This document shows, piece by piece, positions 8,142 to 33,002 of a stretch of 64,000 nt of DNA (the stretch's first letter is position 1; the number at the start of each line of letters is the position of its first letter). This stretch comes from a virus. A model generated the notes under the pieces. The model had not been told where the DNA came from, made no database searches, and worked only from the letters and a program-made list of their open reading frames with translations. The stretch spans positions 1-64,000 of the IMG/VR virus record IMGVR_UViG_3300042691_044682. One strand, 5' to 3'. The position numbers and the translations under genes were made by a program.

Positions 8142-9683
8142 TCAGCCGAGGGCGGCCTGCACCTGGCTCTGCATGAACTCGAAGAAGCCGAGGTTGCCGC
8201 CGTAGAGGGCGTTGAAGGCGCCGGCGGCCGCGTCGAGCTGGTCGTCGTGCGATCCGTTGGGGAAGGCGCAGAGCTCGTCGATGAACTCCTCGTTCCAGGA
8301 GCCGCGCACCAGGAAGACCTGGCCGGCCTGCATCATGGAGGCGAGGCCGCGGGCGCGGGTCGCCTTGTCGCCGGACTCCTTCTCGATCTTCACCGTGTAG
8401 GGGGCGAGGAAGCGCACCATGGCCTGGGCCTGTGCGACGCCGGCCTGGCCGGGGTCCTGCGGGATCCAGATCGGCACCGCCATGCCGTCGGCCTGGGCGG
8501 TGGCCTTGATGGCTGAATCCACCTGCGCCGGCGTGTCGCGCAGGCGCAGCGCGTGCTCGATATAGACGCGGCCGATCTTGTCCTTGGAGGCGCGGACGCC
8601 GGCGGTCCAGTCGGGGTCCTTGCCCGGCTCGGGGACGGTGGCGGCGAGGTCCCAGCGGCGCAGGCGCCCCATGGCGTCGGCCGGGACGGCATCGACGAAC
8701 TGGAACCAGCCCCGCTTGAACAGGCCGCCATCGCGCGGGCCGGGGCGCTGCTGCAGCTGGCCGGCGACGGCGTATTGCCCGAGCGCACGCTCGAGGCTCT
8801 TGAGGGCGTCCTCGCTGATGCGGGTCTTGTGGAGGATCTCGCCCGGCTCGGTGCGAGGGTCCTTCGCGTGGCGGTCCGGATGATCCGGCTCGAACCGCAT
8901 GGGCAGGACCACCTTGTGGTAGCCCCGCTTCATGCACCAGCCCGCGAGGTCCTCGGCGTGGACGCGCTGCTGGATGACCATCTTCACGCCGCGGTCGGGC
9001 TCGTTGAGGCGTGATGGAATGGCCTCGCCCCACCAGAGCAGCACGGAGTTGCGCTCGGCCTCGCTCTCCGCCTTCTGGGCGGGGTGGGGGTCGTCGACCA
9101 TGACGTAGTCGCCGCCGTGGCCGGTGACGTTGCTGCCGGGGGTGCAGGCGAAGCGGTGACCGCCTGCGGTGGTCTCGTAGTAGGTCTTGTTGTCCTGGTC
9201 CTTGACGATGGTGACGCCTGGGTGGCGCATGCCATCGGACAGGATGGTCGCGGCGACGTAGGCGGAACCGGCGCCCCAGCGCTTCTGGTACCAGGTGCTC
9301 TTCACGAGCCGGCGGCACTTCACGGCGTCCCTGGTGGCCAGGGTCATTTCGTTGGAGCCGCAGAGGAACTTGGCGGAGGGGTGCCAGGTCCAGACCCAGG
9401 CCGGGAAGGCCACGGACATGATCTGGGACTTGAGGGAGCGCGGCGGGATGCAGAAGACCGCCTCGCGGTGCTGCCGGCGGGCGACGGCCTCCATTTCCTC
9501 GCAGAGGAGGTCGATGTGCCAGTTCCACAGCAGGTGGGCCGGGTCCATGAAGCGCCAGGCCATGCGCAGGAAGGCGCCGAAGCGGCGCGGGCCGAGGGTG
9601 GCCTCGAGGGCGATGCGCTCGGGGCTATCGAGGGAAGCCAGACGGCGCGTTCGCGGGGGAACGATCGCGGCGATCTGGTTCAT
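8142..9683 (-). CDS. terL: Terminase large subunit
   Basis: 513 residues from ATG 9683, which overlaps the stop of the upstream tiny gene (ATGA). ATPase part: Walker A-like PPRSLKSQIMS, and VMVDDPHP as Walker B with following acidic residues. Nuclease part: RRWDLAAT, and the C-terminal HDDQLDAAAGAF that closes the RNase H-like nuclease of TerL proteins. TerL pumps DNA into proheads through the portal and cuts the concatemer. A longer upstream extension of the frame is Arg-rich shadow and was rejected. Confidence 0.93.
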   Translation of the reverse strand: MNQIAAIVPPRTRRLASLDSPERIALEATLGPRRFGAFLRMAWRFMDPAHLLWNWHIDLLCEEMEAVARRQHREAVFCIPPRSLKSQIMSVAFPAWVWTWHPSAKFLCGSNEMTLATRDAVKCRRLVKSTWYQKRWGAGSAYVAATILSDGMRHPGVTIVKDQDNKTYYETTAGGHRFACTPGSNVTGHGGDYVMVDDPHPAQKAESEAERNSVLLWWGEAIPSRLNEPDRGVKMVIQQRVHAEDLAGWCMKRGYHKVVLPMRFEPDHPDRHAKDPRTEPGEILHKTRISEDALKSLERALGQYAVAGQLQQRPGPRDGGLFKRGWFQFVDAVPADAMGRLRRWDLAATVPEPGKDPDWTAGVRASKDKIGRVYIEHALRLRDTPAQVDSAIKATAQADGMAVPIWIPQDPGQAGVAQAQAMVRFLAPYTVKIEKESGDKATRARGLASMMQAGQVFLVRGSWNEEFIDELCAFPNGSHDDQLDAAAGAFNALYGGNLGFFEFMQSQVQAALG

Positions 9684-9811
9684 CCGGAGTTTTTCGTACG
9701 CCCCCAGATGGCGTGGTGGGCGAGGGCGCCGAGGCCGAAGCCGCTGAGGAAGATCACCCCGGCGATCAGCGCGAGCTCCCAGAGCATGTCGGCAAGGATC
9801 GCGTTGGGCAT
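9680..9811 (-). CDS. Tiny single-pass membrane protein before terminase
   Basis: 43 residues: a short N-terminus, one hydrophobic segment (LALIAGVIFLSGFGLGALA) and a short basic tail ending KNSG. GGAG lies 11 bases before ATG 9811. The stop overlaps the terminase start by ATGA, so translation is probably coupled. The reading was made by translating the minus strand directly. Function unknown; a small holin-like or envelope role is conceivable. Confidence 0.6.
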   Translation of the reverse strand: MPNAILADMLWELALIAGVIFLSGFGLGALAHHAIWGRTKNSG

Positions 9812-9878
9812 CGCGTCGGAAGCTCCGGACGCAGAAGGGGCGGCCGGACAATCAAGTAGCCCGGCCGAACCCTGGGGG

Positions 9879-10070: not shown

Positions 10071-10459
10071 CGCCGCGCCCTCTTCTTCGCCGCCGGCTTC
10101 TTCCGTGCCCGGGGCTCTGCCGCCATGGCTAGGTCGTAGGCCGCCTGGGCCGCGGCCGCCATCGCGGGCGTGACACCGGAGATCTCCAGCGCCAGGCGGT
10201 CCTTCTCGACGAACGCGTCGAAGTCTTTCACCGCGAAGAGGAGGTTCTCCAGCACGACCTTCGCCCGCGGCTCGCCACGGCCGCGCGCGTCAATCGAGAA
10301 CTCGATCGCGACCACGCCGCGCAGCGGCACCCAGCCGGCAGGCTCGCCGCACCAGACCAAGACGGCGCTGTTAAACGCAGCACGCCCCCCGACCACGCGG
10401 ATGTCGCCCCGCTCGGGCGGCGGCGAGGGACGGGACGGGTCAAGGATGGTCGGGCTCAT
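10067..10459 (-). CDS. Hypothetical protein
   Basis: 130 residues. Middle part is beta-rich (VLVWCGEPAGWVPLRGVVAIEF), then an Ala-rich helix and a Lys/Arg tail (RARKKPAAKKRARR) that may bind nucleic acid. Coupled with neighbours on both sides: 3 bases from the Acb2-like gene stop and ATGA overlap with the tiny membrane gene downstream. Family not recognised. Confidence 0.6.
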   Translation of the reverse strand: MSPTILDPSRPSPPPERGDIRVVGGRAAFNSAVLVWCGEPAGWVPLRGVVAIEFSIDARGRGEPRAKVVLENLLFAVKDFDAFVEKDRLALEISGVTPAMAAAAQAAYDLAMAAEPRARKKPAAKKRARR

Positions 10460-10462
10460 GGC

Positions 10463-12142: not shown

Positions 12143-12413
12143 GTTCAGGATCCTCCTCGCTCGTTTCCTCTCCCGGCCCCGGCGCCTCGCCGAGGTCGAA
12201 GGTGATGGTCACCAGGACGCGGCGCCGCCAGCGCATGACGCCCGCCTGGCCGCCGCCGGCGACGACGTCGCCAAGGGTGCGCCAGCCGAGCGCCGGGCCG
12301 CACCAGACGTCGATGCCGGCGCCCAGGCCCTCGAGGTCGCCGCGGATGGTGCCCACGGGGCGCTCGACGTCCTCGCTGGGCGGCTGGAGCGGGGCGAACA
12401 GGTCATCGATCAC
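12108..12413 (-). CDS. Hypothetical protein after a pentanucleotide array
   Basis: 101 residues starting at ATG 12413, the first gene downstream of the 12414-12784 array. It has a beta-rich core (IDVWCGPALGWRTLGDVV; RRRVLVTITFDLGEA) and an acidic tail that overlaps the next gene by 34 bases. Function unknown. Its leader would carry the repeat RNA. Confidence 0.5.
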   Translation of the reverse strand: MIDDLFAPLQPPSEDVERPVGTIRGDLEGLGAGIDVWCGPALGWRTLGDVVAGGGQAGVMRWRRRVLVTITFDLGEAPGPGEETSEEDPEHDRRHEDGTAL

Positions 12414-12784
12414 TGCTCACCCCGCTCCCTGCCGGCGTTGCGGTGCCTTGCCCTGCGAAGCCCTGCCTTGCCTGCGATGCCTTGCGATGCCCAGCCTCGC
12501 CTCGCCTTGCCTTGCCTGCCCTGCCCGGCCACGCCAGACCCAGCCCCGCCAGGCCATGCCTGCCGTGCCCCGCCATGCCCGGCCACGCCGTGCGCCGCGG
12601 TGCCTCGCCTTGCCTGCGCTGCCATGCCCCGCCAAGCCCCGCCATGACTAGCCATGCCTGCGGTGCCCTGCCCCGCCACGCCAGACCCAGCGACGCCTTG
12701 CCTTGCCTGCCCTGCCCGGCCACGCCAGACCGTGCCGTGCCATGCCTTGCCTGCCATGCGGTGGCACGCCTCGCCTAGCCTCGC
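12414..12784. repeat. Pentanucleotide (NNGCC) array 1
   Basis: 371 bases without a credible gene. The plus strand is built of units ending GCC at 5-base spacing (CTTGCC, CACGCC, CATGCC, CTAGCC and so on), with changing first two bases. A roughly 38-base block occurs twice (about 12502-12540 and 12692-12730). A 23-base stretch at 12645-12667 (TGACTAGCCATGCC...) recurs exactly in array 2 at 14204-14226. Frames through it encode only Arg/Ala/Gly/Trp low-complexity peptide, so I treat it as non-coding repeat. Confidence 0.85.
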
Positions 12785-13237
12785 CTAGCCCGGCGCCGCC
12801 TGCGTCGGACCTTCCACCAGCGCCCCCATTGCCGCCTCGATGTGCGGCGCCAGGGACGCGTAGCGGCGGTACCGCTCGAGGACGCGATCGACATCGAGCC
12901 GCATCCGCCGCAGGAGCACCTCCATGTCATCCTCGTCCTGCAGGACGGCGGTGATGGTCCGGTAGGTGTTCCTGGCGACGGTCACGTAGGCGCGGACGGG
13001 CACCAACGCATCGTCCGGCCGCGGCAGCATCGTCACCGCGGCGCGGATCACCCGCCCGGCCTCGATCAGCAGCAGCTTCGCCTGCGCGTCGTCCGCATCC
13101 CAGGTGAAGGCCGCGTGGAGCGCCGTGTTGGAGCTCCGCGCGAAGTCGATCACAGCCTCCTTGGTGAGGACGCCGCCGTTCATCTGGCGGACGACCTCGA
13201 GCTCGGCGAGCTGCGACTGGGTCAGCATCCTGCTCAC
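12785..13237 (-). CDS. Conserved phage protein, unknown function
   Basis: 150 residues from GTG 13237, chosen because GTGA overlaps the upstream stop and AGGAG lies 5 bases before it; ATG 13228 is the alternative. It carries MNGGVLTKEAVIDFAR, an ALHAAFTWDADDAQAK stretch and a C-terminal RRYASLAPHIEAAMG. I recognise this motif set from many siphophage genomes, next to the gene type found upstream here. Function is not known. Confidence 0.7.
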   Translation of the reverse strand: MSRMLTQSQLAELEVVRQMNGGVLTKEAVIDFARSSNTALHAAFTWDADDAQAKLLLIEAGRVIRAAVTMLPRPDDALVPVRAYVTVARNTYRTITAVLQDEDDMEVLLRRMRLDVDRVLERYRRYASLAPHIEAAMGALVEGPTQAAPG

Positions 13238-13926
13238 GGCCGCTCCTGGATCCGGAAGCTGCCCCAGCCGACGCCGGCGCTGTTCTTGCTGTCCGCCCGG
13301 CCCTCGCCGATGCCGACCTGCTCGCCCACCCGCGACATCAGGTTCGCGATGTCGGTGGCGGTGAACTGGTCGGCGTCGAAGCGGACCGTCACGTCCATCT
13401 CCCACTCGCGCCACATGGGCCGGGTGCGGATGTCGATGACCCCCGTCGCGTTGCGGGTGGGCAGGTCGCTGCGGATGGGCTCGGGGCCGAGGATGCGCAC
13501 CAGCGGCGTGCCGTCGATCCGGTCGAAGCCGTGCGGCTCCACGAAGACCGACATCTTCGCCAGCGTCATCTTGAAGTTCACGAGCCGGCAGGCGGAGATC
13601 ATGCCGCTGCGGAAGGCCCCGGCATGGACGCCGTCCCAGCCATCGGTGGAGATGTGCCGGGCCTCGTTGAAGGCGGCGTCGAAGTCCTTCGCGTCGCGCT
13701 TCTTCTTGCCGCGGGCGGTGGACCCGGCGGCCTGCTTCTCCATCATCGCCTGCATGGCCTTCGCGGGGAACCGCGAGATCACCAGCGGCGCGGTGCCGAT
13801 GATGTGGAAGGTCACCATGCGCATGTTGGGCGCGGTGATGGTGATCGGCTGGGCGCCGTCGCCCAGCTCGTCGCCGCGCCCCTTGGCCGATCGCTTGGCC
13901 TTGGCGCCGGCAGTCATCCCATCCAT
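13234..13926 (-). CDS. Conserved phage protein, possible RAMP-like fold
   Basis: 230 residues from ATG 13926 (AAGGA 8 bases upstream). Recognised as a family seen in phages of Proteobacteria: DGWDGVHAGAFRSGMISACR, AKMSVFVEPHGFDR, TRPMWREWEMDV and the C-terminal GIGEGRADSKNSAGVGWG. The Gly-rich loop resembles the loop of RAMP/Cas7 folds, but that link is my inference. It is paired with the 12785-13237 gene by a GTGA overlap, an association known from other phages. Confidence 0.7.
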   Translation of the reverse strand: MDGMTAGAKAKRSAKGRGDELGDGAQPITITAPNMRMVTFHIIGTAPLVISRFPAKAMQAMMEKQAAGSTARGKKKRDAKDFDAAFNEARHISTDGWDGVHAGAFRSGMISACRLVNFKMTLAKMSVFVEPHGFDRIDGTPLVRILGPEPIRSDLPTRNATGVIDIRTRPMWREWEMDVTVRFDADQFTATDIANLMSRVGEQVGIGEGRADSKNSAGVGWGSFRIQERP

Positions 13927-14384
13927 GATGTCGATCCTTCGTTCAGAAGATCCCCGGGCGGCCAATCCGCCTGGGGTGGTACGGGGAGCGGGTTCCAGGC
14001 CCGCTCCCCGTTTTCGTGCCGGCCTCGACCGGCCTGGCCTTGCCTCGCCGAGCCGAGCGAAGCCCGACCGCGCCTAGCCACGCCTGCCGTGCCCGGCCGT
14101 GCCTTGCCAGTCCACGCCCTGCCTGCCGTGCCCGGCCGCGCCAGTCCTCGCCCTTCCAGTCCTAGCCAAGCCTGCCGCGCCATGCCGAGCCCCGCCTGTC
14201 CGTGACTAGCCATGCCTGCGGTGCCTCGCCACGCCCTGCCACGCCTAACCAGGCCTCTACACGCCTCGCCTGCCGTGCCACGCCCGGCCTAGCCCCGCGA
14301 AACGCAGCCAGGCCCCGACACGGCTCAATGAAAGACATTTCAATGTGATCCTGTCCAGCGGAAAAATACATCTAGATGTGTTTT
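13927..14384. repeat. Pentanucleotide array 2 with flanking hairpins
   Basis: 458-base gap. From about 14020 to 14310 the plus strand repeats NNGCC units as in array 1 and shares an exact 23-base stretch with it (14204-14226). Next to the gene at 13926 lie a strong hairpin (13981-14011) and a nested hairpin CCCC-GGCGG...CCGCC-GGGG (about 13954-13980). The far end holds AT-rich palindromes (14328-14385). No credible gene seen. Confidence 0.8.
13981..14014 (+). terminator. Hairpin with T-run, terminator-like
   Basis: Twelve-base arms ACGGGGAGCGGG / CCCGCTCCCCGT around TTCCAGG, followed on the plus strand by TTTTC. The orientation would stop plus-strand transcription entering the minus-strand operon. 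Read on the minus strand it is simply a strong leader hairpin before the 13926 gene. Confidence 0.5.
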
Positions 14385-14385
14385 T
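14362..14385 (-). terminator. AT-rich palindrome after the 14385-15233 gene
   Basis: Centre ACATCTAGATGT is a perfect palindrome flanked by A5 on the left and T5 on the right with one mismatch. On the minus strand it follows the stop codon and ends in TTTTT, as an intrinsic terminator would. A second palindrome ACATT-TC-AATGT lies at about 14335. Both stand out in very GC-rich DNA and could also be protein-binding sites. Confidence 0.5.
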
Positions 14386-15233
14386 CACGCAGGGTCGATC
14401 GGATCCTCCGGCGGCGCCGGCACAGGCGGACGCTCCGTCCCGCCCTCCATGAACTCCACCAAGCGCTGGTACGCCTCCAGCTCCGCCGTCGGCATCTTCG
14501 CGAAGTCCAGCACCAGCTTCCGCTCCGTCTGGGTCACCTCGTGCTGGTGCTCGATCGGCGCCCCATCGACCCCCGACAGCTCCACCCGCTTCGGCCGATC
14601 CTCCATCCCCAGCGCCTTGCGCCGCTGCACCTGGATGCTCTCGGCCAGCCGCGTCAGCGCCGTGATCTTCGACGCGATCGCGTCCTTCCCATCCGCCAGC
14701 ACCTCCAGCACCTCGAGGTCGGGGTCCTTGTGGTCGGTCATCACGAACAGGAGCTTCGTCACGTGCCGGTGCAGCTGGTCGAACGTCTCGGACAGCTGGT
14801 CGATCCGCCGGAGGTCGCGCAGCACCCCCACCTTCATCACCTCGGCCACCCGGTCGATCGTCAGCTCCCGCGCCTCGGCCACCAGCGAGGTGGGCTGATT
14901 ATTTTCCTGATCTTCTGGGTCCGAGGGGTCCGAAAAATCGGACGAATGGTCCGAGCGCTCCTTGGGAGCCAGCTTTTCCCTGCGGTCCGAGGGGTCCGAG
15001 GGCTCGGACTTTGGGCGGCTGGCCTCGTCGTGTTCGAGGACGGCGCGGGCGACGGCGGCTGACTGTGCGGCGGCGAGGGCGGCGGGGGAACGGGCCCAGC
15101 CTTCGCTCACGGCGCGCTTGCGGATGGCCTTTTCGGAGACGTTGAACTTGGCGGCGAGAGCGAGGTTGGAGACTGTCCCCATCTCCCACTCGGCCCGGAG
15201 GGCGAGCCATTCCTCGGGGCTGAGGGCGGGCAT
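14385..15233 (-). CDS. HTH protein, candidate small terminase subunit
   Basis: 282 residues. N-terminal helix-turn-helix (residues ~5-45: WEMGTVSNLALAAKFNVSEK, then AIRKRAVSEGW), a Ser/Asp/Pro-rich linker (~75-112), then long helices. DNA-binding head plus oligomerising helices fit a small terminase, but it lies 4.7 kb upstream of terL rather than adjacent, so a regulator is the alternative. AAGGG sits 7 bases before ATG. A terminator-like palindrome follows. Confidence 0.55.
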   Translation of the reverse strand: MPALSPEEWLALRAEWEMGTVSNLALAAKFNVSEKAIRKRAVSEGWARSPAALAAAQSAAVARAVLEHDEASRPKSEPSDPSDRREKLAPKERSDHSSDFSDPSDPEDQENNQPTSLVAEARELTIDRVAEVMKVGVLRDLRRIDQLSETFDQLHRHVTKLLFVMTDHKDPDLEVLEVLADGKDAIASKITALTRLAESIQVQRRKALGMEDRPKRVELSGVDGAPIEHQHEVTQTERKLVLDFAKMPTAELEAYQRLVEFMEGGTERPPVPAPPEDPIDPA

Positions 15234-26719: not shown

Positions 26720-26939
26720 GCCACAAAGCGAGCCCCCGGCGCCGAAACGCCGGGGGCCGCTGGAGCCTTGCAGTGCCGAGCCCAGCCAAGCCATGCGCTA
26801 CCCCGCCTGGCCTGCCGCACCGGCCACGAGAATCACACAGAACTAGGTTCCTCTCAAGTCGAACGTGCATCCGCACCAACGGATCGCCGCCGCCTCCCCG
26901 GCACCGTCCTTCGAGACGGGAGGCATGGAGAACTGCCCT
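26720..26939 (+). promoter_or_regulatory. Hairpin, short pentanucleotide array and type A2 leader
   Basis: Strong hairpin GCCCCCGGCG/CGCCGGGGGC (about 26733-26758). Then ~55 bases of NNGCC repeats like those at 12.4 and 14.1 kb (26765-26822), CACACAGAACTAGG at 26846, and a type A2 leader with CCTCCC/GGGAGG around CGGCACCG and TCCTTCGAGAC. This is the only place where repeat and leader types meet. Confidence 0.7.
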
Positions 26940-32233: not shown

Positions 32234-32274
32234 CCACACTTCTATGTGGTCCGGGCGAGGCTAGGCAAGGCTAT
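32234..32274 (-). promoter_or_regulatory. Operator-like palindrome and mini GGCNN array
   Basis: CCACA-CTTCTA-TGTGG (32234-32249) has the same half-site as the operators at 33014 and 34089. Next to it, four GGCNN units (GGCGA GGCTA GGCAA GGCTA, about 32255-32274) are a tiny version of the pentanucleotide arrays in opposite orientation. Confidence 0.5.
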
Positions 32275-33002
32275 ACGTCGTCGGCCAGCAGCACCATGAG
32301 CGCGACCCGCCCGCGGATCTGGAAACTGTCGCCATCCACGCGCCAGACCTCGCCGCGATAGGGCCACGGCAGCTCGACCCGAACGCGCTGCATCGTGCCC
32401 GAATTGCGGAACACGAGAACCGCGCGCGCCGCCTCCCCCTCGCCCTCCACCGCCACGCTGCGGACGGTGACCTCATGGCGCCCCTCGCGGATCCGGTGCA
32501 CGAGCACCAGGTCGCCATCGCGCAGCGGGCGGGTCATCGAAGCGAAGGCCTGCACGCCGATGTAGCTGCCGGCAGGGTAGATGGCGTTCGCATGGCCATC
32601 GAGCAGAACCGCCGCCTCGTCGGCCGCAAGGCCGGGCGGCAGCGCCAGGTGCTGCGGCGGGGCGATGTCGGCCTCATAGGTCGGCCGCCACATGCCGTCG
32701 GCCGCCGCAACCCGGACCGGCACGGTCGCCGCCTTCACGCCGGTCGCCGGCGTCTCGCCGATGATCTCGGTCACCGTGGCGCCGGGGATTGCGCGCGCCA
32801 GCCGCTCGAGCGTCTCCTGGCTCAGCGTCTTCGAGTGGCCGTTCATGAAGTTGTAGATGGCATTGGCCGAGCGCAGGCCGGCCGCGCGCGCCCAGTCCGC
32901 CGCACGGAGGTCGTGCCGCTGCATGAAGGCCTCGAGGGCGCCGCGGCGGCGTCGGTACAGCCGATCGCCGCCCCGAGGCCCGTCTAATGGCTGCGTCATC
33001 AT
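32271..33002 (-). CDS. CI-type repressor with LexA/S24-like C-terminal part
   Basis: 243 residues. HTH at ~22-65 (RHDLRAADWARAAGLRSANA, then IYNFMNGHSKTLSQETLERLA). The C-terminal domain has DGHANAIYPAGSYIGVQAF and RPLRDGDLVLVHRI, which align with the S24 peptidase pattern, but the usual Ser (in GDSM) is replaced and I see no clear Lys partner. So it may repress without self-cleavage. It is divergent from the Cro-like gene with an operator between, the classical lysogeny switch arrangement. Confidence 0.8.
   Translation of the reverse strand: MMTQPLDGPRGGDRLYRRRRGALEAFMQRHDLRAADWARAAGLRSANAIYNFMNGHSKTLSQETLERLARAIPGATVTEIIGETPATGVKAATVPVRVAAADGMWRPTYEADIAPPQHLALPPGLAADEAAVLLDGHANAIYPAGSYIGVQAFASMTRPLRDGDLVLVHRIREGRHEVTVRSVAVEGEGEAARAVLVFRNSGTMQRVRVELPWPYRGEVWRVDGDSFQIRGRVALMVLLADDV

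Follow-up and report, generated by a model that had tools for sequence, protein, structure and literature searches.

The closest described relatives of the locus considered here are the VIPR systems reported in a 2026 preprint (PMC13142463), which describes a phage RAMP protein (Vipr), an accessory gene and guide RNAs (vrRNAs) made of alternating GGY and NN units. According to that source, Vipr binds GGY/NN RNA, the vrRNAs carry 9–16 repeats, and each NN pair reads two bases of the target, a single base, usually the codon wobble base, being skipped between pairs; the targets are rival phages and prophages, and VIPR is proposed as an ancestor of CRISPR (PMC13142463). Our literature search found no other paper on VIPR. 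Here we analyze a stretch of DNA, hereafter the window, comprising bases 1–64000 of the 92,321-base virus record IMGVR_UViG_3300042691_044682 (71 percent guanine plus cytosine, GC), in which two pentanucleotide arrays flank a candidate vipr gene. Judged from sequence, these are very probably the vrRNA arrays of a phage-borne VIPR system, because the locus combines GGC-NN repeats, a Vipr/RAMP gene, a conserved accessory gene and GGCA-type marks delimiting modules of 7–10 dinucleotides. The features of the locus, in reading direction, are as follows.

14016..14314, minus strand: vrRNA array 2, upstream of vipr in the reading direction; of its six GGC-NN modules, five end in GGCA/CGCA and the sixth in GGCC.
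14217..14270, minus strand: module g2.2 of array 2; NN = GA GT GA CT TA GT AG GT GA AC; no credible target found.
14031..14084, minus strand: module g2.6 of array 2; NN = GT TA GC CG TT TC TC GA AA CA; spells VYAR[FL]SS[DE][KN][HQ].
13981..14011, minus strand: predicted hairpin after array 2, with a 12-base stem of the GGGGAGCGGG type; candidate 3' tail or terminator.
13234..13926, minus strand: vipr candidate, RAMP homolog, phrog_4652; 230 amino acids, with a glycine-rich loop GIGEGRADSKNSAGVGWGSF near the protein end.
12785..13237, minus strand: vap candidate (accessory gene), phrog_15946; 150 amino acids, conserved next to vipr, overlapping the vipr end by 4 bases, its stop codon within the first repeats of array 1.
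12429..12800, minus strand: vrRNA array 1, which lies downstream of vap and consists of eight modules; GGCA ends four of them, and CGCA/CGCC variants end the other four.
12386..12428, minus strand: hairpin predicted to follow array 1; its stem opens with the same GGGAGCGGG, and it extends into the start of the next gene.

Both arrays sit between a small-terminase-like gene (14385–15233) and the large terminase gene (8142–9851), on the minus strand like the surrounding genes and like the portal and terminase genes of the window. In minus-strand reading both run GGC-NN-GGC-NN, over 372 and 299 bases, and GGY is kept in 99 of 119 units by hand count. An earlier note on the window had placed two arrays, of about 370 and 290 bases, in the span 12414–14384. 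Both exist, within the limits listed above, and the span also takes in the two genes between them; the 23-base block common to both arrays and the block of about 38 bases duplicated in array 1, which the note had also pointed out, can be read in the letters. In the stretches examined, successive GCC triplets are spaced by exactly five bases in 41 of 60 cases for array 1 and 30 of 46 for array 2. Among 500 dinucleotide shuffles of each, the same period-5 count averages 3.6 (maximum 11) for array 1 and 2.0 (maximum 8) for array 2; both arrays lie far beyond these shuffles. The note had called the period fixed, but it is not strictly so: at certain four-base units, the module marks considered below, the register shifts by one base. 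Two of the five letters are free throughout the arrays, where a simple microsatellite would have constant unit letters, and the array letters hold neither the identical direct repeats nor the long unique spacers of class 1 CRISPR-Cas loci.

The window shares with described VIPR loci a RAMP-type Vipr, GGY/NN repeats on the minus strand, arrays that flank vipr on its own strand and a vap gene; in the SUSP1 locus, which served as a positive control, GGTNN repeats likewise flank the Vipr gene. As to folded tails, hairpins are predicted after both window arrays, and a constant tail with a hairpin is found in all eight related mycobacteriophages read (see below). From the letters, the earlier note had guessed at a protein-coated RNA and at selection for spacing or for a repeated GGC contact. 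The first guess suits arrays that lie beside a Vipr/RAMP gene, given that published Vipr binds such RNA, and the second, of spacing and of a repeated GGC contact whose other letters are free, coincides with the preprint's reading (PMC13142463).

Evidence for the identity of the vipr candidate comes from sequence profiles and from structure prediction. The gene belongs to phrog_4652, a family annotated as of unknown function, and Pfam gives no match for it or for the vap candidate. A single-sequence phmmer search against PDB sequences returns one match, 36pp ‘SUSP1 Vipr protein’ (E 0.011); with a 15-sequence profile of relatives, 36pp is found at E 9.2e-7, the next match being at 0.021. An HHalign comparison with the Vipr read from phage SUSP1 DNA gives a probability of 96.5 (E 8.5e-10, 174 columns). 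The AlphaFold model (pLDDT 78, pTM 0.72) predicts a Csm3/Cas7-like fold: all 44 Foldseek matches at E ≤ 0.001 are class 1 CRISPR complexes or subunits by title, with VIA Z up to 10.7 to Csm3-type chains. This structural likeness covers Csm3/Cas7-type chains, and the likeness to Vipr itself is one of sequence (profile and HHalign). For the accessory gene, a two-sequence vap profile shows that relatives adjoin vipr in many loci, among them gene 50 of mycobacteriophage Donkeykong. A search for vap relatives via short peptides in viral contigs found none. The vap model is of high confidence (pLDDT 90.9), and a structure search with it gave no matches at E ≤ 0.001, only weak winged-helix hints. The analysis puts candidate names on two uncharacterised phage protein families, phrog_4652 (vipr) and phrog_15946 (vap).

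The pairing of arrays with vipr extends well beyond this record. Scanning viral contigs for seven GCC in register yields at least 120 stretches; among the 120 listed, a match to the vipr profile occurs in 60 at E ≤ 0.01 and in 48 at E ≤ 1e-5. Stretches that lack a match are in part short contigs, or may hold other Vipr types. In one stretch (L027, 1119–1152) a single site fits the pattern in either orientation, which sets it apart from other arrays, and no vipr match occurs there. Wherever a locus has both a profile match and an array, the array lies on the strand of the gene (133/133, at a median distance of 425 bases); this count covers only such loci, leaves out 48 array loci that lack a match, and keeps the near-identical L140–L144 unmerged. 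Searching from the protein side, arrays could be parsed in 14 of 18 viral relatives. Among 20 loci taken from bacterial assemblies, 16 have arrays, and the closest of these loci is from Roseococcus sp. SDR (64 percent identity). The earlier note had held that arrays absent or random in relatives would overturn its proposal; they are present in most relatives of both kinds, and the same arrangement occurs in isolates, metagenomes and bacterial assemblies.

These relatives also reveal how the arrays are punctuated. With the window copies (L001–L008) removed beforehand, one parser found that the four-base units at which register slips are GGCA in 318 of 367 cases across all arrays, near-identical loci being unmerged in this count. 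In the window, marks of GGCA, CGCA, CGCC or GGCC divide the arrays into six and eight modules of 7–10 NN pairs. One relative (L136, 4082–4400) is built of GGT units with the mark unchanged as GGCA; because GGCA is kept there although the units are GGT, we regard it as a real element and not a product of slippage. Across 188 distinct boundaries, NN entropy is 3.52 bits just before the mark and 3.43 just after it, versus 3.91 on average. We infer that GGCA serves each guide as a boundary or 3' handle. The count of 7–10 units is that between marks, across which a mature RNA could extend.

The eight F1 (Cheoctovirus) mycobacteriophages read provide a view of module turnover. A 5' leader and a hairpin-bearing 3' end are common to all of them, and what differs is the presence of whole modules: the Donkeykong array holds two modules that are not in Brocalys, Clifton or Pippy, and BobaPhett and Saal have one that ByChance lacks. 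Single-letter changes within modules also occur. In Donkeykong (L148, 2507–2893) the annotated gene 48 overlies the vrRNA array and probably encodes no protein, whereas genes 49 and 50 are the Vipr relative and the accessory relative, respectively. These closely related, culturable phages differ by whole modules, and therefore how guide arrays are gained becomes directly testable.

We then asked whether the modules, read as guides with one base skipped between NN pairs, match DNA of other elements. Three of the 14 window guides were scanned over the viral collection. Module g2.6, asked at 18 bases, matches four viral contigs, each at 20 of 20 bases, on the sense strand and with the skipped base at codon position 3. 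All four genes carry Pfam Resolvase, Recombinase and zinc ribbon domains, and the matched bases encode VYARFSS[DE][KN]Q of serine recombinases. The guide itself reads as the wider pattern VYAR[FL]SS[DE][KN][HQ], the catalytic-serine motif of the family. Three of the contigs carry nearly one gene (48–49 percent GC) and the fourth is distant (68.5 percent GC). In bacterial genomes g2.6 has no exact match; at one mismatch it is found in 2 of 299 genomes of the family and 2 of 385 of the class (4 of 684, a few genomes being shared), and the reversed pattern has no match in either search. Three of these four sites are in recombinases (L242, L243 and L265) and one (L264) is in no long frame. Module g2.6 is thus likely, from these matches, to be aimed at serine recombinases. 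Modules g2.2 and g1.5 gave no stretches at 20 bases over the viral collection, and g1.5 gave none at 18. One match to g2.2 at 18 bases (L226, in a capsid gene, skip at codon position 1) was rejected as chance. Within their own 92,321-base record, window guides of at least seven units have no site within two mismatches outside the arrays (best 13/16). A weapon aimed at others should show this, although chance alone would lead to much the same result.

A second candidate target comes from the F1 phages. Module Q2 of Quico matches Che8 10431–10460 at 19 of 20 bases with a skip of 1, versus 14, 17 and 15 at skips of 0, 2 and 3 and at most 17 for 1000 permuted guides. The site is antisense in the tape-measure gene and, by manual reading, the skipped base is the third codon base throughout. 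Without its last NN, Q2 has an exact site in Che8, Squirty, Minnie and Wachhund and none in Quico, Fruitloop, Wee, Ramsey and BigNuz (4/9 records). This match pointed to the last NN as belonging to the handle, and g2.2 and g1.5 were accordingly scanned again with that NN removed; the rule is not general, since g2.6 matches with its last NN (CA). Among 12 F1 guide strings, variants included, Q2 alone finds a site within one mismatch in 1.10 megabases from 19 mycobacteriophages, and the pattern of guide D1 is absent from 16 phage records at three mismatches. For a Bradyrhizobium guide (L156), allowing one mismatch gave a site in 1 of 242 genomes and in none for the control, which we judged not significant; neither of two host assemblies has a site at two mismatches.

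Several observations weigh against the VIPR assignment or against its targets. Only one of the 14 window guides has a target, and the two others scanned gave nothing credible. When 365 guides were compared with 2.5 megabases of locus DNA (both strands, arrays masked), real and shuffled guides gave equal mismatch counts at every skip. The shortened Q2 has a further site, 17 of 18 bases at skip 2, which is shared by six stretches including Quico's own DNA and was reached by none of 1500 permuted guides; we take it to be a coincidence, and single matches are therefore not proof. GGY is lost from about one window unit in six, the window modules have 7–10 units where 9–16 are published, the vipr candidate at 230 amino acids is larger than the ~20 kD quoted for Vipr, and no relation is detected between vap and the SUSP1 accessory protein.

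Other accounts of the arrays fare worse. Their place between a small-terminase-like gene (E 3.5e-8) and the large terminase gene would suit a terminase-binding packaging (pac) site, or some other protein-binding DNA array. That is highly improbable, considering that the mycobacteriophage array and gene pair lie between Cro/antirepressor genes and excisionase, that those of Cyanophage Cy-LDV1 lie near repressor, excisionase and recombination genes, and that vipr is the constant partner of arrays always found on one strand; DNA sites would not need one strand, so its fixity argues against such a site. We find it scarcely credible that the arrays are a neutral microsatellite, a slippage product or an assembly artefact. 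Near-repeats inside array 1 do record local duplication and some units are eroded, but NN letters vary while GGC stays, modules come and go as wholes among the F1 phages, GGCA persists among GGT units, both phase and GGC are conserved in many unrelated relatives, and the arrangement recurs in isolates, metagenomes and bacterial assemblies. The recombination substrate or slippage hotspot offered in the earlier note likewise finds no support in relatives that differ mainly by whole modules, in NN letters that differ among modules or in the constant strand. The chance that the arrays are a repeat protein gene is practically negligible: open frames of 101–115 amino acids do cross array 1, and some annotators call such frames genes, as with Donkeykong gene 48, but every module brings a frame change at its four-base mark, no one frame is maintained through the array and an RNA-binding partner gene lies adjacent.

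A closer rival accepts VIPR and holds that the serine-recombinase match of g2.6 is due to chance in a decaying array. By our own arithmetic a random 20-base pattern is expected about 0.1 times in tens of billions of bases, and the collection is huge; three of the four contigs are almost identical in this gene, leaving about two events; no host has been shown to be common to the contigs and this phage; and the site outside a recombinase frame among the four near matches in bacterial genome searches, together with the lost GGY units, points the same way. We nonetheless consider this unlikely, as only 18 bases were asked and all four hits match the other two as well, in the sense frame, with the skip at the wobble base, over a catalytic motif and in genes of 68 and 48 percent GC, while the reversed pattern gave nothing in either genome search.

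Returning to the arrays as VIPR guides, expression, binding and targeting at the window locus can be inferred from the SUSP1 and P. fulva systems. The minus strand would be transcribed, Vipr subunits would coat the RNA on its GGY triplets, and the free NN pairs would base-pair with double-stranded DNA of a rival element, one target base being skipped between pairs; this pairing would block transcription at the target. Through g2.6, one rival target would be the catalytic motif found in large serine recombinases (integrases) that belong to other mobile elements. More tentatively, and with greater doubt than attaches to the target itself, g2.6 may be a guide that addresses a protein motif and not a single DNA sequence, giving a family-wide block on rival integration whatever the synonymous codons; taken with the whole-module differences at GGCA marks among the F1 phages, the arrays would then be modular, evolving memories of rivals that do without Cas1. 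If true, a wobble-skipping code would let one guide hit many unrelated integrases.

Outside the arrays, a palindromic, AT-rich stretch (14330–14384) immediately upstream of array 2 in the reading direction, conspicuous against a genome of 71 percent GC, is a possible promoter or operator. A promoter scan was empty, a terminator scan was not above shuffles, Rfam gave two sub-threshold matches only and a tRNA search found none. Of the two smaller copies proposed in the earlier note, the one at 26765–26822 is real but weak (period-5 GCC count 4, shuffle maximum 3), and the one at 32255–32274 amounts to four units only. The first corresponds to the following feature.

26766..26822, minus strand: possible orphan single vrRNA module, after a GGCA and followed by a strong GC hairpin; weak, and far from vipr.

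The four GGC-NN units of the second (32247–32276, plus strand) lie near the end of a gene that is weakly phage-repressor-like (phrog_4, E 7e-4).

Among known systems, the locus resembles the F1 loci (e.g. Donkeykong genes 48–50, Quico and BobaPhett), which have an array, a Vipr relative (~31 percent identity) and an accessory relative in the same order, with GGCA marks; they differ in having one array, a constant 5' leader and 3' hairpin tail, and a position in the immunity region rather than beside terminase. With Csm3/Cas7 RAMPs of type III and VII CRISPR complexes it shares the predicted fold and the glycine-rich loop, whereas no CRISPR repeats or other cas genes were noted in the window locus and its guides are gapped. 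The type II VIPR of SUSP1 (PMC13142463; PDB 36pp), one of seven published types, is likewise phage-borne, with a Vipr homolog, GGY/NN repeats on both sides and a small accessory gene; its vrRNAs are separate, about 100 bases long, with long folded tails and mainly GGT units, whereas the window modules, built of GGC units, stand head-to-tail with a GGCA mark. The same source mentions, in a single phrase, ‘staggered arrays with overlapping vrRNAs’ (PMC13142463, fig. S18); these may resemble ours as tandem guides lacking long spacers, and the one-base register shift at GGCA could be their ‘stagger’. Neither this array grammar of GGCA marks nor the targets proposed here are described in the main text of that preprint (PMC13142463), and the present locus and its relatives offer both: a grammar for the arrays, and two testable natural targets under the one-base-skip rule.
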